From Herbaspirillum frisingense GSF30 (GTDB lineage Bacteria > Pseudomonadota > Gammaproteobacteria > Burkholderiales > Burkholderiaceae_D): DNA of 64,000 nt. Each line of letters begins with the position of its first letter. The stretch's first letter is position 1. The stretch spans positions 1 through 64,000 of the forward strand of contig NZ_AEEC02000019.1 of assembly GCF_000300975.2 (NCBI RefSeq), read 5' to 3'. A program made the translations under genes and the position numbers. Below the pieces are notes generated by a model that did not search any database, was not told the DNA's origin, and worked only from the letters and a program-made list of their open reading frames with translations. Shown here one piece after another: positions 27,446 to 32,274 of this stretch.

Positions 27446-27484
27446 TCAGGCAATACTCAGGAATACTCAGGCAATAGTCAGGCA
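27446..27484. repeat. short tandem repeat across the racemase-like stop codon
   Basis: Units TCAGGCAATAC (27446), TCAGGAATAC (27457), TCAGGCAATAG (27467) and TCAGGCA (27478) follow one another. The last overlaps the minus-strand stop codon. The array fills most of the gap between two convergent genes. Confidence 0.8.
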
Positions 27485-28143
27485 GCCGCCTCCAGCGCCT
27501 GCAAGGACTTCAGCAGATGACGCACCGCCGCCGGGATCGGTGCGATCACCGGCACCGTGAATCGCCGTGCCAGGGCAATGGCCGCCTGGCCCAGCGGGCC
27601 GCCACCGATCACCACGGCCTGCGCGCCATCGATCTCCACGCATTCGCGCACGGCCTGGGCCAGGGCCTCTTCCAGTGCCTGCGGATCGGTCGCCAGCACA
27701 CGCGGATCGCCCGCCGTCAGGCGGATACCGGTATAGAGTCCACCTACCCCGGCCTGCACCGCCTTCTCGCCGATCACCCCGGCCAGTTCCGGCGTGACGG
27801 TGGCGATGCCGAAACGGCGACCGCCCTGGGCGGCCTCCAGCATCGAGGCTTCGCACAGGCCTGCCACCGGGCGTCCATCCAGCGCGCGCAGGCGTTCGAT
27901 ACCCGGATCACCGAAGGCGCTGATGATCGCGCCCACGCTATGCCGACCGGCCTCGCGCCAGTTGCGTTCCACCTCGGGCGCAGCCGCCGCCAGCTCGTCG
28001 GCATTGACGATCATCCCCGGCCCCTGCCCGGCACTGACGCCACTGATGCCATAAGCGGCCGGCAGCTCGGCGCGGGCGATGGCCACCATCATGTCGGTGG
28101 TGGCACGGGAAGCGTTGGGGTTGATCAGCAGGATATGCGGCAT
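27478..28143 (-). CDS. Asp/Glu/hydantoin racemase-family protein lacking both catalytic cysteines
   Basis: Protein of 221 residues with the aspartate/glutamate-hydantoin racemase fold pattern: HILLINPNAS start, AIISAFGDPGIERLRAL and AVVIGGGPLGQAA. Hydantoin and allantoin racemases use two Cys, one in an IACFGDPG-type motif and one in a GCAG-type motif. Here the corresponding residues appear to be Ala76 and Gly181. The remaining Cys97 and Cys168 are elsewhere. The frame is open to 28284, but the extension is Arg/Pro-rich, so I use ATG 28143. It starts 22 bases after the MFS transporter stop, so the two form an operon. A decarboxylase-like or binding role is possible; racemisation is doubtful. 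Confidence 0.82.
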   Translation of the reverse strand: MPHILLINPNASRATTDMMVAIARAELPAAYGISGVSAGQGPGMIVNADELAAAAPEVERNWREAGRHSVGAIISAFGDPGIERLRALDGRPVAGLCEASMLEAAQGGRRFGIATVTPELAGVIGEKAVQAGVGGLYTGIRLTAGDPRVLATDPQALEEALAQAVRECVEIDGAQAVVIGGGPLGQAAIALARRFTVPVIAPIPAAVRHLLKSLQALEAAA

Positions 28144-28165: not shown

Positions 28166-29614
28166 TCAGCTACGCGCGGCCACCGCCTGCACCGGCGCTT
28201 CGGGGGCGTCGTCCTGCAGCGGCGCATCGGGCGACTTGCCATAGGTTTCAGGAACGGTGCGCACGGCCAGCGTGAAGATGCCATACATGGCCGCGATCAT
28301 GCCGAACACGCCGGCCAGGCCGAAGGCGTCGAACAGGCGTCCGGCCACCAGCGGCATGAAGGCGCCGGCAGCGGTGCCGGTGGCCAGGATGAAGGCGGTG
28401 CCGAAGGCGCGCACCCGGGTGGGATAGAGTTCCGGCGCAAAGATCCAGATGGTGGTGTTGAGCAGCAGCACGAAGAACTGGAATACCGCACCGGCCGCCA
28501 GGATCAGCACGATGTTCTTGGCCAGGAAACCGATGGTCAGCGCCGCCAGGCAGGCGCCGATGGCGCCTGCCGTCAGCACGCGCTTGCGCGGCAGGTGGAA
28601 GCCGAAGGCCGAGGCCGCAATTGCACCCAGCAGGCTGCCGCTCTGCATCACCATGGTAAACAACAGGCTCTTGGACATGGTGTAACCCAGGCTCACCAGG
28701 ATGGTCGGCATGAGCGTCAACACCGAGATCTGCGCGCCATAGGTCATCCAGATGGCAATGCACAGTGGCAGCGTGCGGCGGGCCAGCGCCCCCTGGAAGA
28801 TTTCCATCGAGCGTACCTTCACCGGTGCCGCCTGCTCGCGCTTGCCATCATCGCTGATCCAGGCCTGGCCCTGCGGCGCCGGGCCGGACAGCTTGCCGCT
28901 GGCCAGGCGCGCCAGCACCTGATTGGCCTCGGCGATCTTGTGGCGCGACAGCAGGAAGCGCGGGGTCTCCGGGATGTAACGACGGTAGAAGGCCCCCAGC
29001 AGGGCCGGCAGCATCAGGCAGAAGAACAGCCAGCGCCAGCTGTTCTCGCCCGGGAACAGGGTGAAGACCAGCAAGCCGAAGGCCGGCGCCAGGAAGTTGC
29101 CCATGCCGCCGGCACCGACGTTGACCAGCCCCACCGCCGTACCACGGAACTTGCTGGAGCAGAACTCGGCCAGCATGGTGACCGCAATGGCGATCTCCCC
29201 GCCCAGGCCAAAGCCGACGATGGCGCGACCGATGGCCATGACCGTCAGGTCCGGTGCCAGCGCACAGATGCCCGCACCCAGCGTGAACAGCAGCAGATCC
29301 AGGCTCAGCATGACACGACGGCCATAGCGGTCCGCCACCAGCCCGGAGACGATGCGACCGATGGCCGCGCTGGCGAAGGTGATGGTATTGAGCAGGCCGA
29401 TATCGGTGGCGGACAGCCCCCACTGCTGCTTGAGCAGGGGACCGACCAGGCCGATGGCGTTCTGTTCGAAACTGTCGAACAGGCAACCAATCAGGATCAG
29501 GAAGATGATGGTGTGGTGCGAACGGGTCACGCCGATCTTGTCCAGCGCGCCGTCCAGCTCGGCTACGCGCGGCGAATTCGGGATGTCCGGCGACGAAAGT
29601 GTGGGTCCAGCCAT
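28166..29614 (-). CDS. MFS transporter, metabolite:H+ symporter type
   Basis: Major facilitator with 12 predicted membrane segments, 482 residues. The MFS signature DRYGRRVMLSLDLLLF follows TM2, and the second conserved motif PETPRFLLSRHKIAEANQVL lies after TM6, as in sugar- and organic-acid porters. GAGGAG is 6 bases before the ATG at 29614; the extension to 29785 crosses promoter-like DNA. It is co-transcribed with the racemase-like gene. The nearby RpiR regulator and three palindromes in the upstream region suggest shared control. The substrate is probably a small organic or amino-acid-like compound. Confidence 0.9.
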   Translation of the reverse strand: MAGPTLSSPDIPNSPRVAELDGALDKIGVTRSHHTIIFLILIGCLFDSFEQNAIGLVGPLLKQQWGLSATDIGLLNTITFASAAIGRIVSGLVADRYGRRVMLSLDLLLFTLGAGICALAPDLTVMAIGRAIVGFGLGGEIAIAVTMLAEFCSSKFRGTAVGLVNVGAGGMGNFLAPAFGLLVFTLFPGENSWRWLFFCLMLPALLGAFYRRYIPETPRFLLSRHKIAEANQVLARLASGKLSGPAPQGQAWISDDGKREQAAPVKVRSMEIFQGALARRTLPLCIAIWMTYGAQISVLTLMPTILVSLGYTMSKSLLFTMVMQSGSLLGAIAASAFGFHLPRKRVLTAGAIGACLAALTIGFLAKNIVLILAAGAVFQFFVLLLNTTIWIFAPELYPTRVRAFGTAFILATGTAAGAFMPLVAGRLFDAFGLAGVFGMIAAMYGIFTLAVRTVPETYGKSPDAPLQDDAPEAPVQAVAARS

Positions 29615-29768
29615 GGTCTGCTCCTCGTGCGTAGGGATGGCAAATGAATGCTGCTCGGTCTGCGGTCGAATCAAGGCTGTGGAACCACGGGTACTGCATG
29701 TCACCGTTTGGATACTGTAGTCCAGCATGCCCGCAAATGGAAGTTTGATTTCAATAAATAGTATTTTA

Positions 29769-29784
29769 TGAAATTTAAATTTCA
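29769..29784. promoter_or_regulatory. perfect 16-base palindrome, candidate RpiR operator 1
   Basis: TGAAATTTAAATTTCA is a perfect palindrome about 155 bases upstream of the MFS start, next to AT-rich promoter-like sequence. Confidence 0.65.
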
Positions 29785-29831
29785 CTCACGCCAGGCTATT
29801 AGCAATCTGCATGCCAGCAATGCTGAATGTA

Positions 29832-29847
29832 TGAAATCCAGCTTTCA
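29832..29847. promoter_or_regulatory. candidate RpiR operator 2
   Basis: TGAAATCCAGCTTTCA has perfect five-base arms (TGAAA/TTTCA) with the same spacing as operator 1, 63 bases away start to start, close to six helical turns. Confidence 0.55.
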
Positions 29848-30048
29848 GGAACATCGGCGTAGCCGACAAAGCCGCCAGGAGTGGGGATGTCGGAAGAGAT
29901 AGGAAGCCAGGCCGCCCGTTGGCGGCACCCTTTCAGGTGTGCCATCGGGTGCGCCCCGCCGGGGCAGCGACAGGCGGCGCGACAGTCACCGCGCACCGTA
30001 CCAGTGCGGCACCCGCATGAAAACAGGGAGTCAAGCCGGTGGATTCCC

Positions 30049-30064
30049 TGAAATCACTATTTCG
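30049..30064. promoter_or_regulatory. candidate RpiR operator 3
   Basis: TGAAATCACTATTTCG matches the same pattern with one arm mismatch, 17 bases beyond the RpiR stop codon on the side of the MFS promoter. Confidence 0.4.
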
Positions 30065-30081
30065 AACCGGCAAGCCGGGGA

Positions 30082-30930
30082 TTACTCGAAATCCCCCAGC
30101 TCCTCATGCTCCTGCTCCACCGCCGCCAGCCGCTTGCGCCCGGCGGCACCGCTGGCGTCGATGACCAGGGTGGCCAGCAGGTCGCACAAGGCCATCACGC
30201 CGACATGGTTGTCCAGCGGGCCGGGACCGCGACACTGGGCCTGCAGCGACCAGCGGGCCTGGGTGCAATCCGGCGAGGCATGGTCGCTGATGTAGAGGAT
30301 AGGGGCAGCGGCGCGCACGGCCGCCTGCAGCAGGCGGTCCATCTGGCTGGTCTGCCGACGGGTACCGAAGACGATGACGCAATCGCGCTCGGACAGGCCG
30401 GCGGTGTATTCGGCCAGGGTCTCGCCGGGACCGGGGATGACCGTCACCCGCGGCAGCACCTGGATGATCTGCCAGCGCAGGTACAGCGCAAAGGCCTGGC
30501 TGCTGCGGCTGCCGAAGATCAGCACCTGCGGGGCGCCGACGATGGCGCGGGCGATCTCGGCCATGGTGGCGTCGGACAGGCGCTCGAAGGTGGCTGCCAG
30601 ATTGGCCTGCGACTGCTGGAAGTGCGCCGTCACCGAGCGCACCTGGCGTGCCGCACCGGCACTGCTGCCGTGGAACAGGGGCGAGCCGACTTCCTGCTCT
30701 TCGCGCACGTGACGGCGGGCTTCTTCGTAGCTGTCATAGCCGATACGACGGATGAACCGGCTCACCGTGGAGGGCGACACGCCGGCCAGCTGCGCCAGCT
30801 CGTTGCCGGCGTAGCTGGCCAGTTCACCCGGGAATTCCAGCAGGAAGTCCGCCAGCAGGCGCTCGGTGCTCGACAACTCGTCCAGCTTGCTGCGCACCCG
30901 GCGCACGAAGGATTCGGAAGAAGGTCTCAT
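30082..30930 (-). CDS. RpiR/MurR-family transcriptional regulator
   Basis: Regulator of 282 residues. The N-terminal HTH_6 domain (1-77; ELAQLAGVSPSTVSRFIRRIGYDSYEEARRHV) is followed by a C-terminal SIS domain (about 115-250; VLIFGSRSSQAFALYLRWQI ... DCVIVFGTRRQTSQMDRL) that binds phosphosugars or related ligands in the family. It lies upstream of the MFS/racemase operon on the same strand, and the 467-base gap between them contains repeated palindromes. It is likely the local regulator. Confidence 0.92.
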   Translation of the reverse strand: MRPSSESFVRRVRSKLDELSSTERLLADFLLEFPGELASYAGNELAQLAGVSPSTVSRFIRRIGYDSYEEARRHVREEQEVGSPLFHGSSAGAARQVRSVTAHFQQSQANLAATFERLSDATMAEIARAIVGAPQVLIFGSRSSQAFALYLRWQIIQVLPRVTVIPGPGETLAEYTAGLSERDCVIVFGTRRQTSQMDRLLQAAVRAAAPILYISDHASPDCTQARWSLQAQCRGPGPLDNHVGVMALCDLLATLVIDASGAAGRKRLAAVEQEHEELGDFE

Positions 30931-31011
30931 GGTGGCGCGGGCCGGGCCCGCTGCGGTGCTATCAGGATCGCCGCATTGTATAGCAGCTATCGCGACACGA
31001 AAGGCCGCAGT

Positions 31012-32274
31012 TCAACCAAACTTGCGCGCCGCGTCGATGGCCAGGCCACTGCCGATGCTGCCGAACAGGTCACCTTCCACATGGCGTGCCTTGGGCGCCA
31101 GTGCCGCGATGCGTTCGCGCAGCAGGCGCACGCCGCTGGAGCCACCGGTGAAGAACACGCTGTCGATATCGTCGGCGCGCAGGCCGGCCTGCTTCAAGAG
31201 CGCCAGCACGGTCTGCTCCACCGTCTGCACCAGGTGGTCGACGGCGGCATCGAAATCGCTGCGCTGCAATTGCAGCTGCTCTGGATTGCGCAGGCGCTCC
31301 AGGTCCAGCACGGTCTGCTCCGCCGAGGACAGCGCGATCTTGCCGGCTTCCACCTGCAGGGCCAGCCAGTGGCCGCAGCGCTGCTCCACCACATCGAGCA
31401 GGCGGGAGAAGCGCTCGCGGTCGGCCACCTCGCGCCCCACGTCCTGCAATTGCTGCCAGGCCTTGCGGGTGTAGAGCTGGTTGATGGTGTGCCAGGTGGC
31501 CAGGTTGAAGTAATAGCTGGAGGGGATCTCGGCATTGCCCTGCAGGCGGCCGCCCAGGCCGAGCAGCGGCATGACGCAGGCCAGGCTGAAATACTTGTCG
31601 AAGTCGGTGCCGCCGATGTGCACGCCGCCATTGGCCAGGATGTCATCACGGCGCTCGCTGCGCTGCGCCCGCTGCGGCGACAGGCGTACCAGCGAAAAGT
31701 CGGAGGTACCCCCGCCGATGTCGACGATCAGGACCAGCTCTTCCCGGTCGATGCGCGACTCGTAGTCGAAGGCGGCGGCGATCGGTTCGAACTGGAAGGC
31801 GATGTCCTTGAAACCGACGTCACGCGCGATCTCTTCCAGCGTATCCTGCGCCAGCTGGTCGGCAGCCGCATCGTCGTCCACGAAATGCACCGGACGACCC
31901 AGCACCACGCTGGAGAACGAGGTGCCGGCGGCCCGCTGGGCGCGCTGCTTCAATTCACCGATGAACTGCGACAGCAGGCCGCGATACGGCAGCGCCCGGC
32001 CGCCGACCTCGGTCTGACCATCAATGGCACCGGAGCCCAGCAGGCTCTTGAGCGAGCGCATCAGGCGGCCTTCATAGCCCGCCAGGTATTCACCCAGTCC
32101 GGCGCGACCATAGCTGAAGCTGTTCTCGTCGGCGTTGAAGAACACGACCGATGGCAGCGTCGCACGGCCTTCTTCCAGCGGCAGCAGCAGGGAATCCCCG
32201 GCATCCGGGCGCAGCCAGCCGACGGTGGAATTGGAGGTGCCGAAATCCACACCGCACGCGTTCGCCATCGCCAT
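31012..32274 (-). CDS. yegD: Hsp70-family protein YegD-like
   Basis: Actin-fold Hsp70-like ATPase of 420 residues without the usual substrate-binding domain. The phosphate-1 motif GVDFGTSNSTVG is at 8-19, the phosphate-2 motif VDIGGGTSDFSLVRL about 200-215, and the adenosine motif FFTGGSSGVRLLRE near 370. Length and architecture match YegD. AAGGAG lies 6-7 bases before the ATG at 32274. It is a single-gene unit; the chaperone-like role is not established. Confidence 0.9.
   Translation of the reverse strand: MAMANACGVDFGTSNSTVGWLRPDAGDSLLLPLEEGRATLPSVVFFNADENSFSYGRAGLGEYLAGYEGRLMRSLKSLLGSGAIDGQTEVGGRALPYRGLLSQFIGELKQRAQRAAGTSFSSVVLGRPVHFVDDDAAADQLAQDTLEEIARDVGFKDIAFQFEPIAAAFDYESRIDREELVLIVDIGGGTSDFSLVRLSPQRAQRSERRDDILANGGVHIGGTDFDKYFSLACVMPLLGLGGRLQGNAEIPSSYYFNLATWHTINQLYTRKAWQQLQDVGREVADRERFSRLLDVVEQRCGHWLALQVEAGKIALSSAEQTVLDLERLRNPEQLQLQRSDFDAAVDHLVQTVEQTVLALLKQAGLRADDIDSVFFTGGSSGVRLLRERIAALAPKARHVEGDLFGSIGSGLAIDAARKFG

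Follow-up and report, generated by a model that had tools for sequence, protein, structure and literature searches.

A conserved doublet of candidate RpiR operators at a sigma54-type promoter in Herbaspirillum and related genera

In the window, i.e. the whole stretch of 64,000 nucleotides analysed here, the intergenic gap between a gene encoding an RpiR-family regulator and an MFS transporter gene carries a real and conserved operator system, in which a regulator of an ordinary kind is associated with an unusual promoter setting. The core of this system is a palindrome and a second site located three helical turns further, both just past the predicted start of a sigma54-type promoter. RpiR very likely binds these palindromes, judging from the sequences, and would act, with a probability of about 0.7, as a local repressor that gates an NtrC/sigma54 nitrogen-response promoter of the operon formed by the MFS gene and a racemase-like gene. 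This uncharacterised RpiR gains a precise predicted operator (TGAAAT-N4-ATTTCA, N15, TGAAAT), as well as a predicted regulon of one operon and a predicted promoter class. Sugar metabolism is the best-known context of RpiR proteins; here, a sugar-type regulator seems to gate a nitrogen-starvation promoter. Among the titles and abstract openings listed for the open-access literature, none describes an RpiR repressor acting on a sigma54 promoter, which is weak evidence of absence.

Palindromic sites of the rpiR-MFS gap and their conservation

The window belongs to a 5.4-Mb genome whose closest relatives found are Herbaspirillum. The genes of the locus are all encoded by the - strand, in the order Hsp70-like gene, rpiR (30930-30082), gap of 467 bp, MFS gene and racemase-like gene, so that rpiR and the operon are in tandem and not divergent. 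The gap extends from the rpiR stop (30082) to the MFS start (29614). The features of the locus are as follows, positions relative to the transcription start being predicted:

27478..28143, - strand: Asp/Glu/hydantoin-racemase-like gene, two conserved cysteines missing
28166..29614, - strand: MFS transporter gene, with which the target operon begins
29738..29753, - strand: O2, candidate operator TGAAATCAAACTTCCA, exactly 31 bp from O1, predicted +38 to +53
29769..29784, - strand: O1, candidate main operator, perfect 16-bp palindrome TGAAATTTAAATTTCA, predicted +7 to +22, in 24/24 MFS promoters
29801..29816, - strand: sigma54-type -24/-12 element TGGCATGCAGATTGCT (GG-N10-GC), 11/13 consensus positions
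29832..29847, - strand: O3, candidate operator TGAAAGCTGGATTTCA, 63 bp from O1, directly upstream of the -24 element, predicted -57 to -42
29993..30007, - strand: NtrC-like box GCACTGGTACGGTGC, predicted -217 to -203
30018..30033, - strand: O5, candidate weak distal partner TGACTCCCTGTTTTCA, 31 bp from O4
30049..30064, - strand: O4, candidate distal operator CGAAATAGTGATTTCA, predicted -274 to -259
30082..30930, - strand: rpiR, presumed regulator of 282 aa with an RpiR-type HTH and a SIS domain

The initial annotation had reported three TGAAA-N6-TTTCA palindromes in this gap, at 29769 (TGAAATTTAAATTTCA), 29832 (TGAAATCCAGCTTTCA) and 30049 (TGAAATCACTATTTCG). All three are in place, the first is indeed a perfect 16-bp palindrome, and both the length given for the gap and the 63-bp spacing of the first two sites are correct. 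The count itself was too low, as it missed a fourth site with one mismatch at 29738-29753 (reading TGGAAGTTTGATTTCA) and a weak fifth one at 30018-30033. Four sites of this type with at most one mismatch are found in the window, all of them in the gap (0.36 expected, maximum 2 in 100 shuffles); for the gap alone, 2000 shuffles gave 0.015 sites on average and never more than 2. A motif-blind test, which considers any repetition of the same 5-nt arm and spacer, revealed two copies, a result reached in a fraction 0.006 of 500 shuffles.

Conservation was studied in 24 MFS promoters, that of the window and 23 from genomes of Herbaspirillum, Variovorax, Burkholderia and Comamonas that have an RpiR orthologue. 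The 24 loci were gathered by this orthologue; L031, L034 and L041, which lack an MFS gene, were replaced by L093, L094 and L092, L035 was left out since it has no MFS at E<=1e-100, and the start codons of L029 and L030 were set 3 bases late. The main palindrome (at most one mismatch) is present in 24/24 promoters, 81-209 bp ahead of the MFS start codon, a conservation that is partly due to construction since the main site was chosen by match in each locus. The site at +31 and the sigma54 element played no part in this choice, and TGAAAT, located exactly 31 bp downstream of the main palindrome, is invariant in all 24 promoters. The main arms have a mean information of 1.96 bits and the second left half one of 2.00 bits, versus 0.55 bits in the 15-bp linker and 0.42 bits in the 20 bases upstream.

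The doublet follows the MFS gene where rpiR is located elsewhere. In four Comamonas loci (L041-L044), more than 3 kb separate rpiR from the MFS gene, and the doublet still precedes the latter. In Variovorax, two 10.8-kb loci around rpiR (L031 and L034) contain neither an MFS gene nor a site, the doublet being found before the MFS gene in L093 and L094. The sites are therefore part of the MFS promoter rather than of the end of rpiR.

These sites could be regarded as AT-rich palindromes arisen by chance or as terminator debris, as the main palindrome is AT-rich and a stop codon precedes the gap. However, the shuffles of the gap, the absence of any terminator-like site in it and, above all, the conservation with exact spacing over four genera, which by itself already refutes this explanation, leave it a negligible probability. 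A known RNA element was also rejected, as 29500-30200 does not have any Rfam match.

The palindromes would rather be operators of the adjacent RpiR-family regulator. The proposal that they form a binding array for this protein is strongly supported, on sequence grounds, by phylogenetic footprinting, the sites being kept in 24/24 MFS promoters from four genera while the spacer DNA diverges. It can be refined, since it is the 31-bp doublet, placed on a sigma54-type promoter, that would be the functional unit, and since a single operon seems to make up the regulon. As 31 bp correspond to three helical turns, two dimers would lie on the same face of the DNA. The other sites have a narrower distribution: an O3-type site at 62-63 bp was found in 5/24 loci, whereas the distal site (at most two mismatches) is present in 12/12 Herbaspirillum loci with an MFS gene, 10 of which also have its weak partner 30-31 bp away. 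A strict 31-bp grid over all sites was rejected: it fits the window and fails in L022 and L023.

The sigma54-type promoter and its putative control

Upstream of the main palindrome, the alignment contains a second conserved block, TGGCAYG-N4-TTGCT, which is the -24/-12 pattern of sigma54 promoters. In the 64 kb of the window, TGGCAYRNNNNTTGCW matches at 29801-29816 only, for 0.20 matches expected. An element with at least 10 of the 13 consensus positions, which precedes the main palindrome by 15-18 bp, was found in 22/24 loci (shuffle mean 0.09, maximum 3). The two promoters without a recognisable element, from Variovorax (L039) and Burkholderia (L040), keep the operators. The position of the element places the predicted start at about 29790 and the doublet near +7 and +38. 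The source genome encodes RpoN (PF04552, one match, E 2.2e-66) and NtrC (TIGR01818, 686.8 bits with the neighbour in frame, cut-off 558.6).

Further upstream lies a sequence of the type GCAC-N7-GTGC, which is the core of the NtrC box (PMC8743547). Exact copies are found upstream in 10/24 loci versus 0.23 in shuffles, 14/24 having no exact box; when one mismatch is allowed, the box is found in 20/24 loci versus 4.65 in shuffles and is missing in 4/24. The whole resembles the nitrogen-response promoters that depend on NtrC and RpoN, which have a -24/-12 element near TGGCACnnTTnTTGC and boxes near TGCACCAnnnTGGTGCA (PMC8743547). It differs from them by the additional conserved operator doublet located just past the start, presumably devoted to a substrate-specific repression.

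The following scenario can be proposed for the control of the operon. Under nitrogen limitation, NtrC or a similar enhancer-binding protein would act at GCAC-N7-GTGC and turn the promoter on. Two RpiR dimers would occupy O1 and O2, just past the sigma54 start site, and would hinder transcription of the MFS/racemase-like operon at initiation, promoter clearance or early elongation. RpiR would leave O1 and O2 once its SIS domain binds a ligand derived from the substrate. Since expression would require both activation by NtrC/sigma54 and release by the ligand, the operon would behave as an AND gate that responds to nitrogen hunger and to the substrate. In Herbaspirillum, O3 (upstream of the promoter) and O4/O5 (near the rpiR stop) may strengthen the repression.

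The proposed repression has a counterpart in HexR of Pseudomonas, an RpiR-family protein that also associates an HTH with a SIS domain, and whose palindromic operators lie near or downstream of the start, de-repression being caused by a ligand (PMC5902321). At some P. putida promoters, HexR sites are located at +1/+30 and +16/+41 (PMC5902321). However, HexR recognizes TTGT-N7/8-ACAA, whereas the sites described here are TGAAAT-N4-ATTTCA, are arranged in a 31-bp doublet and are associated with a sigma54-type promoter.

Alternatively, RpiR might bind these sites and activate the operon, or might repress a sigma70 promoter, the likeness to a sigma54 element being only superficial. Some RpiR regulators are indeed activators rather than repressors (PMC5902321), and the operators are kept in the two promoters without sigma54 element. 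Such alternatives are nevertheless unlikely: the location of O1 and O2 downstream of the predicted start is that of repressor sites, as for the HexR sites of P. putida (PMC5902321), and GG-N10-GC is found in 22/24 promoters at a near-constant distance. A sigma70 promoter was rejected, as a simple scan of 29500-31100 did not detect any sigma70-like site.

An elaboration of the repressor model can be put forward tentatively, although it is rather doubtful. RpiR tetramers would join O1/O2 to O4/O5, thus enclosing the sigma54 promoter and its NtrC enhancer in a loop and barring the activator from the polymerase until the substrate is present. The weak distal doublet and the helical phasing give a hint of such looping in Herbaspirillum. 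The distances between the distal and the main site, which take 9 distinct values, tend to be multiples of about 10.5 bp (R 0.73, P about 0.005 with jitter). This is no more than a hint of phasing, as the test was post hoc and done in related genomes. If true, this would be a case of a repressor acting via enhancer looping at a sigma54 promoter.

Size of the regulon and identity of the regulator

A genome-wide scan of the 5.4 Mb found five perfect-arm sites, two of which are in the gap, and one match to the reversed control pattern. One further perfect-arm site lies upstream of a gene encoding a 34%-identical RpiR paralogue on contig C61. Among 34 Herbaspirillum genomes, rpiR (orthologue threshold E<=1e-40) is present in 13 and the MFS gene in 12, every genome with the MFS gene (12/12) having rpiR. 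Exact TGAAAT-N4-ATTTCA sites were found in 19/34 genomes, and their reversed control did not match in any of the 34. The 12 genomes that have both genes carry 22 exact sites, 22/22 being located between the two genes; the predicted regulon is therefore a single operon, and a broad regulon was rejected since these genomes do not contain any exact site elsewhere. Two exact sites are found in the genome that has rpiR and no MFS gene (G015). The 21 genomes without rpiR orthologue carry seven exact sites, distributed in six genomes, and the 3-kb loci examined for six of these sites do not contain any RpiR-type gene. Autoregulation through the motif was also rejected, as no site (at most one mismatch) is found upstream of rpiR in the window. 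The claim that the palindromes define the regulon motif of RpiR has to be qualified, given the TGAAA-type palindromes located beside other RpiR paralogues and the seven exact sites of the genomes without orthologue.

On a broader scale, 399 genomes sampled evenly across the order were searched for the doublet pattern, and the genome of origin alone had a match (1/399), a result that reflects the low number of genomes of the relevant genera drawn and only shows specificity. Within the family, 13 genomes out of 392 have the composite pattern combining the sigma54 element and the operator; 12 of them are all the genomes of the genus with rpiR and MFS. The thirteenth match (L112 from G549, another genus) includes an imperfect palindrome, precedes a phage-tail-collar-like gene (judged by eye) and has no site at +31; it is probably due to chance.

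The sites might also be bound by another regulator, either of the LacI type or another RpiR paralogue, the linkage to rpiR being incidental. PtxS, a LacI-family regulator, binds TGAAACCGGTTTCA, which is also a TGAAA...TTTCA palindrome (PMC5902321). However, the PtxS palindrome has a spacer of 4 and a GC-rich centre, whereas the spacer is N6 here and the linked gene is of the RpiR type with a SIS domain. Furthermore, the source genome contains six other RpiR-type HTH genes, and the C61 paralogue has its own TGAAAC-type array. This explanation is nonetheless very unlikely, as this RpiR was the sole criterion for collecting the loci and yet the doublet is present in 24/24 MFS promoters, and as the 12 genomes with rpiR and MFS have no exact site outside the gap; in addition, an RpiR-type gene is lacking around six of the seven sites of the orthologue-less genomes, as mentioned above.

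The adjacent RpiR, the preferred candidate, carries an N-terminal HTH (PF01418, 40.3 bits, above the cut-off of 28.3) and a C-terminal SIS domain (PF01380, 37.8 bits, above the cut-off of 25). It does not reach any of the named RpiR equivalogs of NCBIfam (HexR, MurR/RpiR, AlsR, SapR), the best score being 43.7 bits for a cut-off of 500 and that for the HexR model 43.2 bits for a cut-off of 296. The orthologues encoded by the loci of Herbaspirillum, Variovorax, Burkholderia and Comamonas share 63-96% identity. Two weaker palindromes, 32 bp apart, are found upstream of a gene encoding another RpiR paralogue (L047 1921-1968, G000 contig C80); pairs separated by about three turns may be a wider theme among RpiR regulators.

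Related arrangements and products of the operon

A natural swap is found in Herbaspirillum RV1423 (L035, G015), which does not have any MFS gene. Its module comprises GCACCGTCGAGGTGC, TGGCACGCACCTTGCA and TGAAATTTAAATTTCA, then TGAAAT 30 bp further. This NtrC/sigma54/doublet module (L035 2690-2954) precedes a gene encoding an amino-acid-type ABC solute-binding protein; after this gene come a porin gene, the rpiR orthologue and a racemase-like gene. The gap before the latter contains a single site, with neither a 31-bp partner nor a sigma54 element. A more distant RpiR-type gene is divergent at the module, so that there are two candidate regulators at this locus.

Another arrangement was found in the source genome itself, beside the 34%-identical RpiR paralogue:

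L049 1868-1971 (G000 contig C61): array of the C61 paralogue, preceding a solute-binding protein gene and a DUF1989 gene

This array, examined in its own genome only, includes four TGAAAC/GTTTCA-type sites with spacings of 29, 30 and 29 bp, one of which overlaps a sigma54-like element (11/13 positions).

The second protein of the operon has the Asp/Glu/hydantoin racemase fold (PF01177, 90.7 bits), and its predicted structure is close to 3qvk and 5lg5 (Foldseek TM about 0.9). Two cysteines are catalytic in allantoin/hydantoin racemase. The racemase-like protein would share its fold with allantoin racemase (3qvk/3qvj, 5lg5) but not the cysteines of 3qvj, both positions being occupied by Ala and Gly in 22/22 orthologues (SAFGDPG, IGGGPLGQAA). 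In the alignment, the allantoin racemase of P. fluorescens (5lfd) lacks the first cysteine and keeps the second one. The label "racemase" is doubtful for this protein, which probably has a different activity. Hydantoin racemase (COG4126) is among the genes predicted to be regulated by sigma54 in Proteobacteria (PMC12316311), in an article whose main text does not contain the word RpiR.

Upstream of rpiR, the Hsp70-like gene (31012-32274, - strand) encodes a protein that scores 256 against PRK11678, below the cut-off of 331. L028, which begins 96 bases before rpiR, is uninformative for this gene. The Hsp70-like gene is present in the window and in 10/10 other Herbaspirillum MFS loci that include the upstream side, at about 0.85 kb from rpiR in L026 and L027.
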